Virus record (IMG/VR): IMGVR_UViG_3300030012_003189
Location: 26,964 to 90,963 of that record
Length of the DNA: 64,000 nucleotides
DNA from: a virus
Direction: 5' to 3' (one strand)
Below, piece after piece: positions 52,774 through 59,467 of the stretch. The notes below the pieces were generated by a model that did not search any database, had not been told where the DNA came from, and was given only the letters and a program-made list of their open reading frames with translations. The first letter of the stretch is position 1. The number at the start of each line of letters is the position of its first letter. A program made the position numbers and the translations under genes.

Positions 52774-54012
52774 TTAATCTACAAAGTTTTTCGTACTTAG
52801 TATTGTGGATAGTTTACTCGCTATGGCTGCAAACTTAGGTGCATTTACAGGTGGGCCTGATGGACCTGCGGGTGTTGGATGAGTCATAGATTGTAACTCT
52901 GTACAAAGTTCATTTAGTAACTCAACTAAAGTATCACCTAATACTAATGGCTCTTCAGAACCCCCATTACCTAAATGTATTTCACCTGTTTCAGTTTCTA
53001 TAGTGTAGTCACTACCATTTGTAATGTATAACACATTATCATCTGTATTAACAGTCATACCACCTTTGTTATCTATAGATAATGTTGAATCCGAAATAAA
53101 ACCATAATTACCCTTTGAATAAAAAATCATTTCAGAATCTTTTGCAGAAAGTATGATTCTACCACTATTGATTAATATTTGGTCTCCAGTCAATTCCGAT
53201 GGATACTCTTCAAAAGAGTTTGGTTTTTGTTCAAAGTTTGATGAACCACCATCATCTATAACACCTGGCTGAAAATCTAATTTGTAATCAGCTGATGATA
53301 GTACGATAGTAGAACCATCTCTGTTTACATCTTCTTCTGTTATTAGTCCAGTTTCAATATCGTTTTGAGATATATCATTTTCTCTATTTCTTAATATAAT
53401 TGTTGGTGATAAGGTGTTTTCAGTATTATTGTATCCACTAAATCTTAAAGATTGTCCAAATCTACTTTGAATCAAAGAATCACCTTCGTAGTATCTTAGT
53501 GGATGAATAAAATTACCTTGCTGTTCAAACACATCACCATATCCAGTTTTTTCATCTTCTGATGTATCTTTATTAGCAATACCAGTATTAGATGTTGATT
53601 GGTAGTTTGCTGAGGTGTTACCTGATTTAGTTTTTTTCGGTTTAAATAATCTATCTAAGATATCATCAGTAGTATCAACATTTGGACTTAGGTTTTCACC
53701 ACCTCTCCTATAAAAGTACCCACTTGCTGTTTCTATTATATCTACCTTTTCATTTTTGATTGGTAAGGTGTTAAAATTTTTATCCATAGGAGATGCAAAT
53801 AAATCTCCTTTTGTGCCTGAAAAGAACTTTTTGTTCATCGGTAGGAATTGTATCCAACCAGTTCTACCATTTGGAATTTTACCATCCTTTACTAATTCGT
53901 TATCATCATCTAAGATAACGTTAACTACTACACCTTTAAACGATTCTGTTTCGTTATCGGTAATAGCATCCATCAATCTTCTTGAAAAAAACGAACCTCT
54001 ACTTCTTTCCAT
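52774..54012 (-). CDS. Baseplate hub/spike protein (T4 gp5-like)
   Basis: This 412-residue protein has an OB-fold-like N-terminal part (GVVVNVILDDDNE, RTGWIQFLP), a variable middle, and a C-terminal beta-helix-like region: GDQILINSGRIILSAKDSEM, GNYGFISDSTLSIDNKG. It ends SMTHPTPAGPSGPPVNAP, which recalls the spike-tip ends of VgrG/gpV proteins. The stepwise short strands are typical of a needle-like trimer. No lysozyme domain like that of T4 gp5 is visible. It is followed by the 263-residue gene. Confidence 0.7.
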   Translation of the reverse strand: MERSRGSFFSRRLMDAITDNETESFKGVVVNVILDDDNELVKDGKIPNGRTGWIQFLPMNKKFFSGTKGDLFASPMDKNFNTLPIKNEKVDIIETASGYFYRRGGENLSPNVDTTDDILDRLFKPKKTKSGNTSANYQSTSNTGIANKDTSEDEKTGYGDVFEQQGNFIHPLRYYEGDSLIQSRFGQSLRFSGYNNTENTLSPTIILRNRENDISQNDIETGLITEEDVNRDGSTIVLSSADYKLDFQPGVIDDGGSSNFEQKPNSFEEYPSELTGDQILINSGRIILSAKDSEMIFYSKGNYGFISDSTLSIDNKGGMTVNTDDNVLYITNGSDYTIETETGEIHLGNGGSEEPLVLGDTLVELLNELCTELQSMTHPTPAGPSGPPVNAPKFAAIASKLSTILSTKNFVD

Positions 54013-54418
54013 TATTTACCTTTTCTTTTAATTCCTCAACCTCGTTTGTTAATTCATCAACCTTAGCTTCTTGCTCATCGGCAACTTCACCAACTACATC
54101 TTCTAATTGATTCAGTAATTGCTCCTTTTCTTTATCAGTAAGGAATCCATCTTCACCCAATGTTTTATCCTTAGAAGCTATCATTCGTTGTGCGATAGCT
54201 GCCATCTTTATTAGTGATTCATCGTTTCTAACTGATGTATCTACTAAATCTTTTATGATTGGACCTATTACCGCCATATCACCAGAATGCCTAATCACCT
54301 TCTTCATTTCAGCAATCAATTCTGATATTCTTGTCTTTTTATTTTGCTGGTTATCGTAGATATCTTTAAACAATCCACTTAAATCTTTACCAGGAAATAA
54401 TTGAAAATCTGTACTCAT
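53999..54418 (-). CDS. Hypothetical helical T4-like protein, 139 aa
   Basis: This 139-residue protein is highly helical and charged: LFKDIYDNQQNKKTRISELI, KKVIRHSGDMAVIGPIIKDL, VRNDESLIKMAAIAQRMIAS, and a coiled-coil end (EAKVDELTNEVEELKEKVNN). It overlaps the spike gene start by 14 bases. The size is near T4 UvsY, but I see no diagnostic motif, so I do not assign it. It may be a tail chaperone. Confidence 0.6.
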   Translation of the reverse strand: MSTDFQLFPGKDLSGLFKDIYDNQQNKKTRISELIAEMKKVIRHSGDMAVIGPIIKDLVDTSVRNDESLIKMAAIAQRMIASKDKTLGEDGFLTDKEKEQLLNQLEDVVGEVADEQEAKVDELTNEVEELKEKVNNGKK

Positions 54419-54439: not shown

Positions 54440-54448
54440 TATAAATAT
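54440..54448 (-). promoter_or_regulatory. ATATTTATA element (class I promoter candidate), upstream of the 139-aa gene
   Basis: The coding strand reads AATATTTATAGTCAG, 9 of 10 bases of the recurring core, with 21 bases to the ATG at 54418. It lies directly after the terminator at 54452-54484. Confidence 0.5.
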
Positions 54449-54750: not shown

Positions 54751-54894
54751 ATATTACTCCTCTGTTTAAAATTAATGAAAATAACTTTTCCATATTACAA
54801 AACATCGGACTGTCCAAGAAATAACTATAGTATATATTAAATAAAAAGTATGTTTTTAATTTTCACACCGATTGTGTGAACTATATCGAGTGTC
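54751..54894 (-). other. Intergenic leader with palindromic hairpin before the holin-like gene
   Basis: This 144-base stretch has no ORF of note. It contains a perfect inverted repeat on the plus strand, TTCACAC/GTGTGAA (54862-54880), with a 5-base loop, and an AT-rich stretch (TTTAATATATACTATAG on the coding strand) that may be a promoter for the holin-like gene. The hairpin could be an operator or a second stem of the transcription end. Nothing else is visible. Confidence 0.4.
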
Positions 54895-54928
54895 AAACAA
54901 AAAACCCAACCTTACGGGGTTGGGTTTT
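54895..54928 (-). terminator. Strong rho-independent terminator
   Basis: On the minus strand AAAACCCAACC pairs with GGTTGGGTTTT as an 11-bp stem around a short loop (CCGTAA), then a T-rich run (TTTTTTGTTTG). It ends any transcript reading out of the carbamoyltransferase gene and is also the 3' end of the proposed small RNA. The length and GC core make it the strongest terminator in the window. Confidence 0.85.
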
Positions 54929-55015
54929 ATCCAATCACTTTGAATTACGACTGGTTGTTTAGAGCTACTAAGTTTGTCAATCTCCACACATCTGTCTACA
55001 ATTGTTGAGCTCTAC
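54895..55015 (-). ncRNA. Candidate structured small RNA, about 120 nt
   Basis: Between an ATATTTATAT element (55019-55028) and the strong terminator lies a region without a usable ORF that can fold into stems: TAGAGCT (55014-55008) pairs with AGCTCTA (54966-54960), CCAGTC (54954-54949) pairs with GATTGG (54936-54931), and then the terminator stem. If the element sets the start a few bases downstream, as at coding genes, the RNA begins just at the first stem. It could be a phage regulatory RNA. An alternative is simply the 3' untranslated end of the upstream gene. Confidence 0.45.
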
Positions 55016-55018
55016 AAT

Positions 55019-55028
55019 ATATAAATAT
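55019..55028 (-). promoter_or_regulatory. ATATTTATAT element (class I promoter candidate), upstream of the candidate small RNA
   Basis: The coding strand reads AATATTTATATATTG, touching the stop codon of the carbamoyltransferase gene. No coding region follows for 270 bases, unlike the other copies of this element, so the likely product is the structured RNA. An imperfect palindrome around GAGCTC (55002-55017) lies directly downstream and might be an operator. Confidence 0.45.
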
Positions 55029-56740
55029 TAGATTATTTTCTTAGAAATAAAAATATTATCAATCACTAAGAAATCCATATCACAATTCATAAATGTATCA
55101 ATTGCTTCTTGTGCATCTCTAACCATAGTTTGGTCTTTGAGATTGAATGATGTGTTTAGTAGTATTGGATACTTTGTAATCTTCTGATATTCTTTTAGAA
55201 GTTTATACATCTTAGGATTAAAATCTTCTCTAAGTGTTTGTACTCTTGCTGAACCATCGGTGTGTGTGATAGCTGGTAATTTAGTTTGGTGATTTTGTTT
55301 TACCTTTACTATTTGATTCATATAAGGTATCTCTACATTTGGAGTAAAGAATCTTTTCATATCTTCGTAACAAACTATAGGAGCAAATGGTCTAAAACCT
55401 TCTCTTTTCTTTACAACCATATTTACTCTCTTTTTCATTTGTGGGTCTCTTGGGTCTGCTAAGATAGAACGATTACCTAATGCTCTTGCACCGAACTCTA
55501 ATTGACCTCTAACCCAACCAATAATATTTCCTTCTGATATAAGTTTAGCTACTTTTGGTAACAACTCCTCATCAGATAATGCTTCGTAGAATATCTTATC
55601 TTCGTTATCTTTTACAATCTTTACTATATCTAATAGTTTTTCAGATGGGCCTAAGAATGGTGTTTTATTTTCCTTTCTATCATTTGTGATATGATTCCAA
55701 TAGTTTAGAGCTGCTCCAATAGCAGAACCAGCATCAGATGGAGCTGGTGGTATCCAAATGTTTTTAAATGGTGTTCTATCTTGAATCTTACCATTAGCAG
55801 TTCCATTGTATGCACACCCACCACTTAAACATAAGTTTTTAGATTTTGTTTTTTTATACAGCTTATTTAGTAATCTAAAGAAATGCTTTTCATATGTGTA
55901 TTGTAAAGCTGCTGATATATTTTTATGAATATCATTTATTGGTTCTTCGGATAATCTATTTGGTATTCCAAATAGTTTAGATAGTTTTGTATTGAACATA
56001 ATTTTATCGGAATAATGATAAGAGAAGTATTCCATATTTAGTTCAAATCCATCCTCCGTTTCTTTTATTAGTTCATCAAACTTTTTATGATGAAATAGAT
56101 GAGTACCATATGGAGCTAATCCCATAACTTTATACTCACCTTCATTTGGTTTGAATCCTAAGAAAGCAGTAATTGTAGAATAAAGTAATCCTAATGAGTG
56201 TGGATACACTACTTCACTATGTCTTTTTATTATATTATCTTTACCAGTCGCTAATACAGTAGTATCCCATTCACCAACACCATCTACTGATAGTATAGCT
56301 GATTCATCAAAATCTGAGGTAAAGTATGAATATGCTAAATGAGATAAGTGATGATTACCAATGAAAACTTTTGCATTAGGAAATATGTAATCAAAGTGTT
56401 CTAACGGGTTTGTTTTCTTTGGAAACTTAAATGGGTTCTTCCAAAAGTATTTCCAATAAGATTTCCAATCTCTATCGTTTTTAAGATTTGGATTTTCATA
56501 ATAACATACGGCTGATATTTGTTTACCTACAATTTTGTTATTTTTTAAAATCCAATTAATTGAATTTATTGGAAAACTACTATCGTGTTTTATACCAGTA
56601 AATCTTTCTTCTTCTACTGCGTTTAAAACTTTACCATTTTGTATTAGTGCAACTGCTGAATCATGAAATCCAAAAGAGATTCCAATGATATAATCATCAT
56701 AAATGTTCTTCTTCATTCCAAAACTGATTTGGATTGTCAT
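55028..56740 (-). CDS. Carbamoyltransferase (NodU/TobZ family)
   Basis: This 570-residue protein begins a NodU-type fold at IIGISFGFHDSAVALI with GKVLNAVEEERFTG, has IGNHHLSHLAYSYF (the metal-binding His pair), SVDGVGEWDTT, CLSGGCAYNG (about 307) and the C-terminal RGQLEFGARALGNRSI (about 420) with FRPFAPIV. Members use carbamoyl phosphate and ATP to carbamoylate a hydroxyl, commonly on sugars. The start at 56740 overlaps the sigma gene by 44 bases; a second Met at 56716 would reduce this to 20. In this phage it could carbamoylate a glycan, or a hydroxylated base. Confidence 0.85.
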   Translation of the reverse strand: MTIQISFGMKKNIYDDYIIGISFGFHDSAVALIQNGKVLNAVEEERFTGIKHDSSFPINSINWILKNNKIVGKQISAVCYYENPNLKNDRDWKSYWKYFWKNPFKFPKKTNPLEHFDYIFPNAKVFIGNHHLSHLAYSYFTSDFDESAILSVDGVGEWDTTVLATGKDNIIKRHSEVVYPHSLGLLYSTITAFLGFKPNEGEYKVMGLAPYGTHLFHHKKFDELIKETEDGFELNMEYFSYHYSDKIMFNTKLSKLFGIPNRLSEEPINDIHKNISAALQYTYEKHFFRLLNKLYKKTKSKNLCLSGGCAYNGTANGKIQDRTPFKNIWIPPAPSDAGSAIGAALNYWNHITNDRKENKTPFLGPSEKLLDIVKIVKDNEDKIFYEALSDEELLPKVAKLISEGNIIGWVRGQLEFGARALGNRSILADPRDPQMKKRVNMVVKKREGFRPFAPIVCYEDMKRFFTPNVEIPYMNQIVKVKQNHQTKLPAITHTDGSARVQTLREDFNPKMYKLLKEYQKITKYPILLNTSFNLKDQTMVRDAQEAIDTFMNCDMDFLVIDNIFISKKII

Positions 56741-57428
56741 CTATCACTTCACCTTCTAAAAACGAATTTAACATTTTCTTTTGATGTTGCTTCATTACAT
56801 TTACAACTTTTGTGATGTAGTGAGTTTTACAATCTGTCATTTCTCTAATAAGTAGATATAAATGTTTTTTATTAAAGTTTTCTATATAATCTGCTCTTCT
56901 AAATAATTCTAAAACCGCATCTGCTATTTGAATATCTCTTTTCTTTGTAAATACAACTGTAAGATTTTTATCCCAATATTCTAACATTATTTTTCTAAAC
57001 TCAGAATATTCTTCATTTTGTTGAGCTTCATAATAATCGTTTTGTGGATTCCAAGTTTGTGGCATTTCAGATATTAATGCGTTTTTTTGCCATCTTTTAT
57101 AATTACCATTATTATTTAGAATCAAATAGTTTTTTGCTATAATTGTAAAATAAGAAAATGCTTTACCTTTACCTTCTTTGTACATATGTATTTTTTCTAC
57201 CATAGCAGATACTACTTCTTTTTTGATATCTGATTTTGGTACATCAAAGTAAGTAAACTTAAATGTATTTAAAACATTTTCAGCTAATTTTGCGAAAGGA
57301 TATTTTATACCTTCATTGTATATTTTATTCCTCTCTTTAGGGTCTTTACATTTGTTGTATGCTATAATAGCATCTTGAGCAGGCGTACCAAAATACATTT
57401 TGGATTTTTTTCTTCTCGGTCTGGGCAT
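56697..57428 (-). CDS. Late-transcription sigma factor, T4 gp55-like
   Basis: This 243-residue protein has a basic N terminus, then a sigma-like helical region: NEGIKYPFAKLAENVLNTFK, VVSAMVEKIHMYKEGKGKAF and FSYFTIIAKNYLILNN, a segment strongly reminiscent of gp55 of T4-like phages (AFAYFTxI..YxxxRxI type). Gp55 directs host RNA polymerase to late promoters with gp33 and the sliding clamp. It is placed directly above the carbamoyltransferase, holin-like and tail genes. The promoter it uses may be the recurring ATATTTATA element. Confidence 0.75.
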   Translation of the reverse strand: MPRPRRKKSKMYFGTPAQDAIIAYNKCKDPKERNKIYNEGIKYPFAKLAENVLNTFKFTYFDVPKSDIKKEVVSAMVEKIHMYKEGKGKAFSYFTIIAKNYLILNNNGNYKRWQKNALISEMPQTWNPQNDYYEAQQNEEYSEFRKIMLEYWDKNLTVVFTKKRDIQIADAVLELFRRADYIENFNKKHLYLLIREMTDCKTHYITKVVNVMKQHQKKMLNSFLEGEVIDDNPNQFWNEEEHL

Positions 57429-58846: not shown

Positions 58847-59467
58847 TTATACAATTTCATACCCTCTCTCTAATAATGGTACTGCTTTTTTGTACTTCAT
58901 AAACTCAGTATCACCATCAGGAGATTTAACCATCACTTTATCATTTCTACCAAATTTCTTTTCAGATACTCTTTGGATATTATATGCTCTTACAGAATCA
59001 GTAATTAATATCCCATCTAAATGGTCTATCTCATGCTGAGCAACAACACACTCTAACAATCCTTCATCAGCAAAGTAATTGTGCCCTTCTGAACCTATCT
59101 TATCCTTTTCATCAGGTCCAAACTCAACTGTACCTAAGTTATCTGTTTCAACAGTAATAGAAATACTTCTAACTGTGTTCTTTGGTTTTCTCATTGTTTT
59201 GGGAAGAGATAAACAACTCTCAATATACTGAACTGCTTCTTCACTTCTTTTAACAATTTTTGGATTTACCAACACCATAGGTTGTTTGATGTTAATCACA
59301 CACATTCTTTTATCCACACCGATTTGGTTTGCTGATAATCCAAATCCTTTTTCTTTTTCTAATGCGGTAAACAATGCTGCTGATATAACATCTTCTTCAG
59401 ATTTATTTTTAGGTAAATCTGTTACTACCTTTTGTAATTTTATTTTATCTGTAACTATGTTTCTCAT
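58847..59467 (-). CDS. def: Peptide deformylase
   Basis: This 206-residue protein has the three deformylase motifs in order: GLSANQIG (about 46), a variant of GxGxAAxQ; ESCLSLP (about 84), a variant of EGCLS with the metal-binding Cys; and QHEIDHLDGI (about 146), the HExDH metal site. The enzyme removes the formyl group from the N-terminal Met of new proteins. Phage copies are known in marine myoviruses, where they may speed maturation of phage or photosystem proteins. It overlaps the next gene by 4 bases. Confidence 0.9.
   Translation of the reverse strand: MRNIVTDKIKLQKVVTDLPKNKSEEDVISAALFTALEKEKGFGLSANQIGVDKRMCVINIKQPMVLVNPKIVKRSEEAVQYIESCLSLPKTMRKPKNTVRSISITVETDNLGTVEFGPDEKDKIGSEGHNYFADEGLLECVVAQHEIDHLDGILITDSVRAYNIQRVSEKKFGRNDKVMVKSPDGDTEFMKYKKAVPLLERGYEIV

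Follow-up and report, generated by a model that had tools for sequence, protein, structure and literature searches.

A conserved hairpin between a putative late-type promoter and a terminator: a candidate small RNA gene in marine, probably flavobacterial, phages

Few phage-encoded small RNAs are known to us, and most of these are from enterobacterial and cyanobacterial phages; to our knowledge, the small RNA biology of the hosts of Bacteroidota phages is poorly known. Phage RNA elements of the nut/boxB or put kind act in cis on the genes downstream of them. Two systems of T4-like phages also bear comparison with the locus considered here. CfrI is an antisense RNA of cyanophage S-PM2 (Millard et al. 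2010, as described in PMC12197685), and PeSLs are promoter-terminator cassettes of T4-type phages (Arbiol 2010; Comeau 2014; cited in PMC4503421).

The present locus lies in a window of 64,000 nucleotides, the whole stretch of DNA that was analysed, which is part of a 102,940-bp virus record whose - strand carries nearly all of the genes. The source is a marine bacterial virus, probably with a flavobacterial host, an assignment made indirectly through its relation to a Flavobacterium phage, and the phage group to which it belongs is one of large, myovirus-like phages that probably infect marine flavobacteria. The features of the locus, in window coordinates, are:

55019-55028 (read 55028-55019), - strand: putative late-type promoter element ATATTTATAT, an orphan copy, from a motif census and alignment with relatives
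54899-55014, - strand: predicted transcript of about 116 nt, with a predicted start 6 nt past the promoter element and a predicted end in the T tract
54960-55014, - strand: lineage-specific 5' domain with a 7-bp closing stem (TAGAGCT/AGCTCTA), which comes from the 3' end of an ORF of ~116-125 aa
54931-54954, - strand: conserved hairpin, the family core, with a 6-bp stem (CCAGTC/GATTGG) and the 12-nt loop GTAATTCAAAGT, from covariation and covariance-model matches
54937-54948, - strand: hairpin loop, with G, A and AAA invariant (columns 9, 11 and 16-18 of A4) and a variable centre
54899-54928, - strand: intrinsic terminator with an 11-bp stem (54928-54901), a 6-nt loop and a T tract
55028-56740, - strand: upstream neighbour, an accessory carbamoyltransferase gene, not present next to the element in L120 and L127
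54514-54750, - strand: downstream neighbour, an accessory gene of 78 aa with its own conserved leader
53999-54418: w53999 gene, downstream of the unit
56697-57428: gene for a protein of 243 aa, upstream of the unit

Relatives of the unit were collected from several directions. The 78-aa neighbour led to 80 loci and pattern scans added 108 stretches, partly overlapping. To keep the hairpin itself out of the selection, a set of 80 loci was also drawn with the 243-aa upstream protein as the query. This protein is ~70% or more identical across near members of the phage group. Judged by eye it presumably resembles a gp55-type late sigma factor, a name that is a reading of the sequence only because the protein had no match among Pfam, PHROGs or PDB sequence profiles. 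Of 24 records, 22 have a match at E <= 1 to a covariance model of 28 positions built for the hairpin, and one strong match per record is the norm. Among the 80 protein-chosen loci the hairpin is present in 49, always on the gene strand and downstream of the 243-aa gene; the weakest of the 49, in L300 and in L302, were judged acceptable by eye. Genomes of up to 213 kb normally carry the hairpin once, and a search for second copies in the same genomes gave only weak matches inside other sequence.

The hairpin was first proposed in a sequence-only reading of this DNA, and it is present on the - strand at 54931-54954, where that reading had placed it. Its conservation as a structure is seen in 28 distinct hairpins from loci chosen by the 243-aa neighbouring protein, in which 96.4% of the pair cells are paired, a count that leans somewhat towards structure because the hairpins in these loci were located with a model trained on the pattern-selected set A1. 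When the stem is slid, at most 47% of the cells are paired. Double-sided (compensatory) changes occur in five of the six stem pairs and amount to 22 cells, compared with 5.8 in shuffles, and the covariation score was attained by none of 500 shuffles. Covariation was also examined in set A1 and with RNAalifold, and was counted as support. The sequence-only reading had looked to covariation of its stem pairs among relatives; this is found for the central hairpin, but the 7-bp long-range stem that it had also described is not a family feature. G-U pairs are common in the hairpin stem (13 U-G at one position), which indicates an RNA rather than a DNA palindrome. In L302 the stem is almost wholly different (ACGTCC/GGACGA) around an identical loop. 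Loop length is constant throughout the set of 28. G9, A11, A16-A18 and the closing C-G never change, in contrast to columns 12-15, which take several forms (AUUY, UAAY, GAAU, GACU). Fixed loop flanks around a drifting centre are better explained by protein recognition or by a loop of defined fold than by an antisense seed, and it is more likely that the hairpin would be recognised by a protein than that it would serve as such a seed. The best reading of this pattern is that the hairpin is the functional part of the candidate RNA.

The unit occupies a fixed place in a gene order that is otherwise subject to change. The order is the 243-aa gene, an optional carbamoyltransferase gene, an optional ORF of ~124 aa, the hairpin with its terminator, an optional 78-aa gene and w53999. 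In L120, L127, L300 and L302 the unit has the 243-aa gene and w53999 as its immediate neighbours, and in a related genus (L109, L139) another gene precedes it. It has been cleanly lost in at least two lineages (L030/L032/L035 and L048/L052/L053) and is therefore dispensable rather than essential. Two isolated relatives that were checked, Flavobacterium phage immuto and Microcystis phage Mel-JY01, have no hairpin, and a DNA-level search of isolated phages gave no match. A permissive search with the hairpin plus terminator returned matches only at E of about 1 or more, which were taken as chance, and the 20-base core occurs in 2 of 85k bacterial species genomes, both of them unrelated MAGs, which is consistent with chance.

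Several neighbours have features of their own. The carbamoyltransferase encoded at 55028-56740 is Nol-like, and a peptide deformylase gene lies at 58847-59467; both are phage-encoded accessory genes with a role in metabolism or modification. The leader of the 78-aa gene (54751-54900, - strand) is strongly conserved and has TATATACTATAGTTATT followed by a small palindrome whose letters differ among relatives with the palindromy kept (GGACAGTCC, GACATGTCC, GGATATCC). An inverted repeat, GACACC..GGTGTG, is found in this leader immediately past the terminator of the candidate small RNA.

The coding strand of the 102,940-bp record has 17 copies of the motif ATATTTATA. Fifteen of these are 12-45 nt before an ORF start and one is within an ORF, so that the copy at 55028 is the sole intergenic one with no ORF nearby, the next start being at +278. 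Other copies in the window are at 728, 19206, 26237, 35110, 36422, 38420, 51959 and 54448, all on the - strand. The related form ATATTTAT has a strong strand bias in the record, with 20 occurrences on the coding strand compared with 3 on the other. The same motif precedes genes in relatives, including the isolated phage immuto, and because ATATTTATA precedes ORFs here, in the relatives and in immuto, the ATATTTATAT element is taken to be the late-type promoter of the phage group. We take ATATTTATA to be the reverse complement of the T4-type TATAAATA core; the label "late" comes from this likeness and from the position of the motif ahead of structural genes. A promoter-like element at 55019-55028 with no gene after it had been noted from the sequence, and both its orphan status and a motif better than chance are confirmed.

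The element can also be followed across the relatives of the unit. The ATATTTAT of the window aligns with ATACTTAT of relatives that carry an overlapping ORF. A promoter-like octamer lies at most 130 nt upstream in 69 of 75 units (mean 4.3 and maximum 10 for random positions), and the strict form [AC]TATTTAT does so in 22 of 75 (3.2 at random positions), with both counts inflated by shared descent and by the coding role of ATACTTAT. This weaker form, which in many relatives is protein-coding as well, makes up 44 of the 75 promoter matches. The order of promoter, hairpin and terminator nevertheless reappears where the upstream DNA of relatives is unrelated, and a close promoter precedes the hairpin after unrelated sequence in L300, L302, L142, L122, L113, L061 and L080. 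Units that combine unrelated upstream DNA with a close strict promoter are the stronger evidence.

The intrinsic terminator is likewise where it had been placed in the sequence-only reading, with an 11-bp stem followed by T's, and a terminator scan of 801 nt gave 3 matches where 0.1 were expected by shuffling. RNAfold of 54895-55020 recovers exactly the three stems named in that reading at -31.8 kcal/mol (z = -2.5), with 4 of 200 shuffles as good. The unit has no meaningful ORF, as had been stated, since the sole GTG ORF (43 aa) runs through the terminator. ARAGORN found no tRNA or tmRNA gene in the window, and no Rfam 15 family exceeded its gathering threshold for the window or for seven related loci. 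The best sub-threshold match was RF02278, a Betaproteobacteria toxic sRNA that resembles the unit in having a hairpin plus terminator and a similar length. Identity with this family was rejected and the match treated as chance, as its 19.9 bits are far under the gathering score of 50.

The 5' part of the unit differs between lineages. The 7-bp long-range stem exists as first described, TAGAGCT (55014-55008) being perfectly complementary to AGCTCTA (54966-54960), but it proved to be restricted to particular lineages and to have a partly coding origin. The DNA that matches the 5' stem is, in relatives such as L002, the 3' end of the ORF of ~116-125 aa. This ORF is dead in the lineage of the window, where its front has been replaced by the end of the carbamoyltransferase gene and there are in-frame stops, while promoter, hairpin and terminator persist; the promoter is an exact consensus match. 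L113 is a second case of ORF loss; its 5' stem, which was also folded, retains its pairing through a compensatory change of C-G to U-A (TAGAGTA/TACTCTA). Elsewhere the 5' part has a different hairpin (L302, L300) or none (L061, L142). In L002, L034, L050 and L106 the ORF upstream of the hairpin has a signal-peptide-like start and a coiled-coil-like C-terminus, and the one member that was searched had no Pfam or PHROGs match. Its last ~30 codons overlap the proposed RNA gene and the promoter, and the ORF and the RNA may constrain each other.

The unit, for which a promoter motif, structure, covariation, synteny and a single copy per genome are all observed, is probably a discrete late phage non-coding RNA gene with the hairpin as its recognition element. 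The small RNA proposed in the sequence-only reading thus gains support from covariation of the central hairpin and from the recurring promoter-hairpin-terminator order, from which we infer a separate transcript. Late RNA polymerase would start at the ATATTTATAT element and produce an RNA, about 65-116 nt long according to the lineage and about 116 nt in the window, that ends at the strong terminator. The RNA would fold into a variable 5' part, the conserved hairpin and the terminator stem, and with an RNA-binding protein of phage or host as its partner it could act in trans at a late stage of infection. Downstream genes have their own promoters past the terminator, with a late promoter at 54448 for w53999 and a promoter directly after the terminator in L300, L302, L127 and L142, and the unit therefore stands alone. 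A more specific proposal, which must be regarded as speculative, is that the RNA is a late-phase riboregulator new to Bacteroidota phages whose hairpin, as a decoy or scaffold, captures or recruits one particular RNA-binding protein of phage or host and so controls the late programme.

Alternatively, there could be no separate RNA, and the hairpin and terminator could be the 3' end of the upstream late operon, where they would stabilise or process the upstream mRNA and end it. An operon end needs a terminator, and many neighbours have plain terminators at the same place with no hairpin. Moreover, in L109 and L139 the hairpin and terminator come directly after a gene and have no promoter motif ahead of them, and in L127 there is no clear one. 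It is nonetheless unlikely that the unit is only an operon end, since a putative late promoter is found in the stretch from the upstream stop to the hairpin, or overlapping the gene end, in the window, L302, L300, L142, L122, L113, L061 and L080. A general device for ending mRNAs should also recur after other genes, whereas there is normally one copy per genome, and mere stabilisation has no need of loop flanks that are fixed in sequence. That the RNA is made and acts as an antisense sRNA, with its 12-nt loop pairing with a phage or host mRNA, is doubtful on the evidence of the phage sequences. Codons 4-8 of w53999 are complementary to the class A loop UAAUUCAAAG, over up to 11-12 nt in some relatives, but these codons, FELF (TTTGAATTATTT), do not differ between phages with class A loops, phages with class B loops (UAUAAUAAAG) and phages that lack the hairpin. 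As the w53999 codons (TTTGAATTA) are unchanged across loop classes and hairpin-less phages, there is no co-variation of loop and target. Translation-start regions in six genomes have no clear excess of loop complementarity over random positions, and the loop centre is the least conserved part. No target of the RNA emerged.

The remaining alternatives assign the unit a role in DNA or in cis. Accessory genes, including the carbamoyltransferase gene, the ~124-aa ORF and the 78-aa gene, have been gained and lost on both sides of it, and gene shuffling in T4-like phages is attributed to PeSLs (as cited in PMC4503421), so the unit could be a mobile promoter-terminator cassette of this type that is kept for recombination or gene shuffling instead of as RNA. 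This is very unlikely given that there is one copy per genome with no further copies at shuffling points, that the promoter appears to be late-type and not early, and that compensatory changes, G-U pairs and fixed loop flanks point to selection on RNA and not on DNA homology. A hairpin just ahead of a terminator and upstream of structural genes also recalls nut/put-like arrangements, as would be expected of a cis-acting leader (an attenuator or antiterminator site) that controls downstream transcription. There is little prospect that the unit works in this way, because the downstream genes start from their own promoters after the terminator, and because another gene, provided with a leader of its own, and a second terminator intervene in the window.

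If the unit is a discrete RNA gene, it represents a structurally supported family in marine, probably flavobacterial, phages and a concrete RNA with a predicted start, end and core loop, and it suggests that late promoters in these phages can drive RNA genes besides protein genes. The literature describes phage sRNAs in other groups, and nothing was found there on this promoter-hairpin-terminator element. The nut/boxB and put elements resemble it in being small phage RNA hairpins with fixed loop residues near terminators, and differ in that the genes downstream of the present unit are served by promoters of their own past the terminator; no antiterminator was identified. CfrI, as it is described, shares with the unit the character of an intergenic non-coding RNA of a T4-like marine lytic phage that is conserved in related phages. 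It is, however, antisense, about 225 nt long and psbA-linked, whereas the present unit is in the sense orientation between genes, about 65-116 nt long and built around a covarying hairpin; no sequence relation between the two was seen, and it is by description that they are set apart. PeSLs, as cited, are similar in being short intergenic promoters with a stem-loop where accessory genes are swapped, but they have early promoters and a high density in shuffling regions, while the present unit has a putative late-type promoter, one copy, a conserved loop and a covarying stem. The unit, which has no Rfam match, would be a new RNA family of a kind that is already known, the phage-encoded sRNA.
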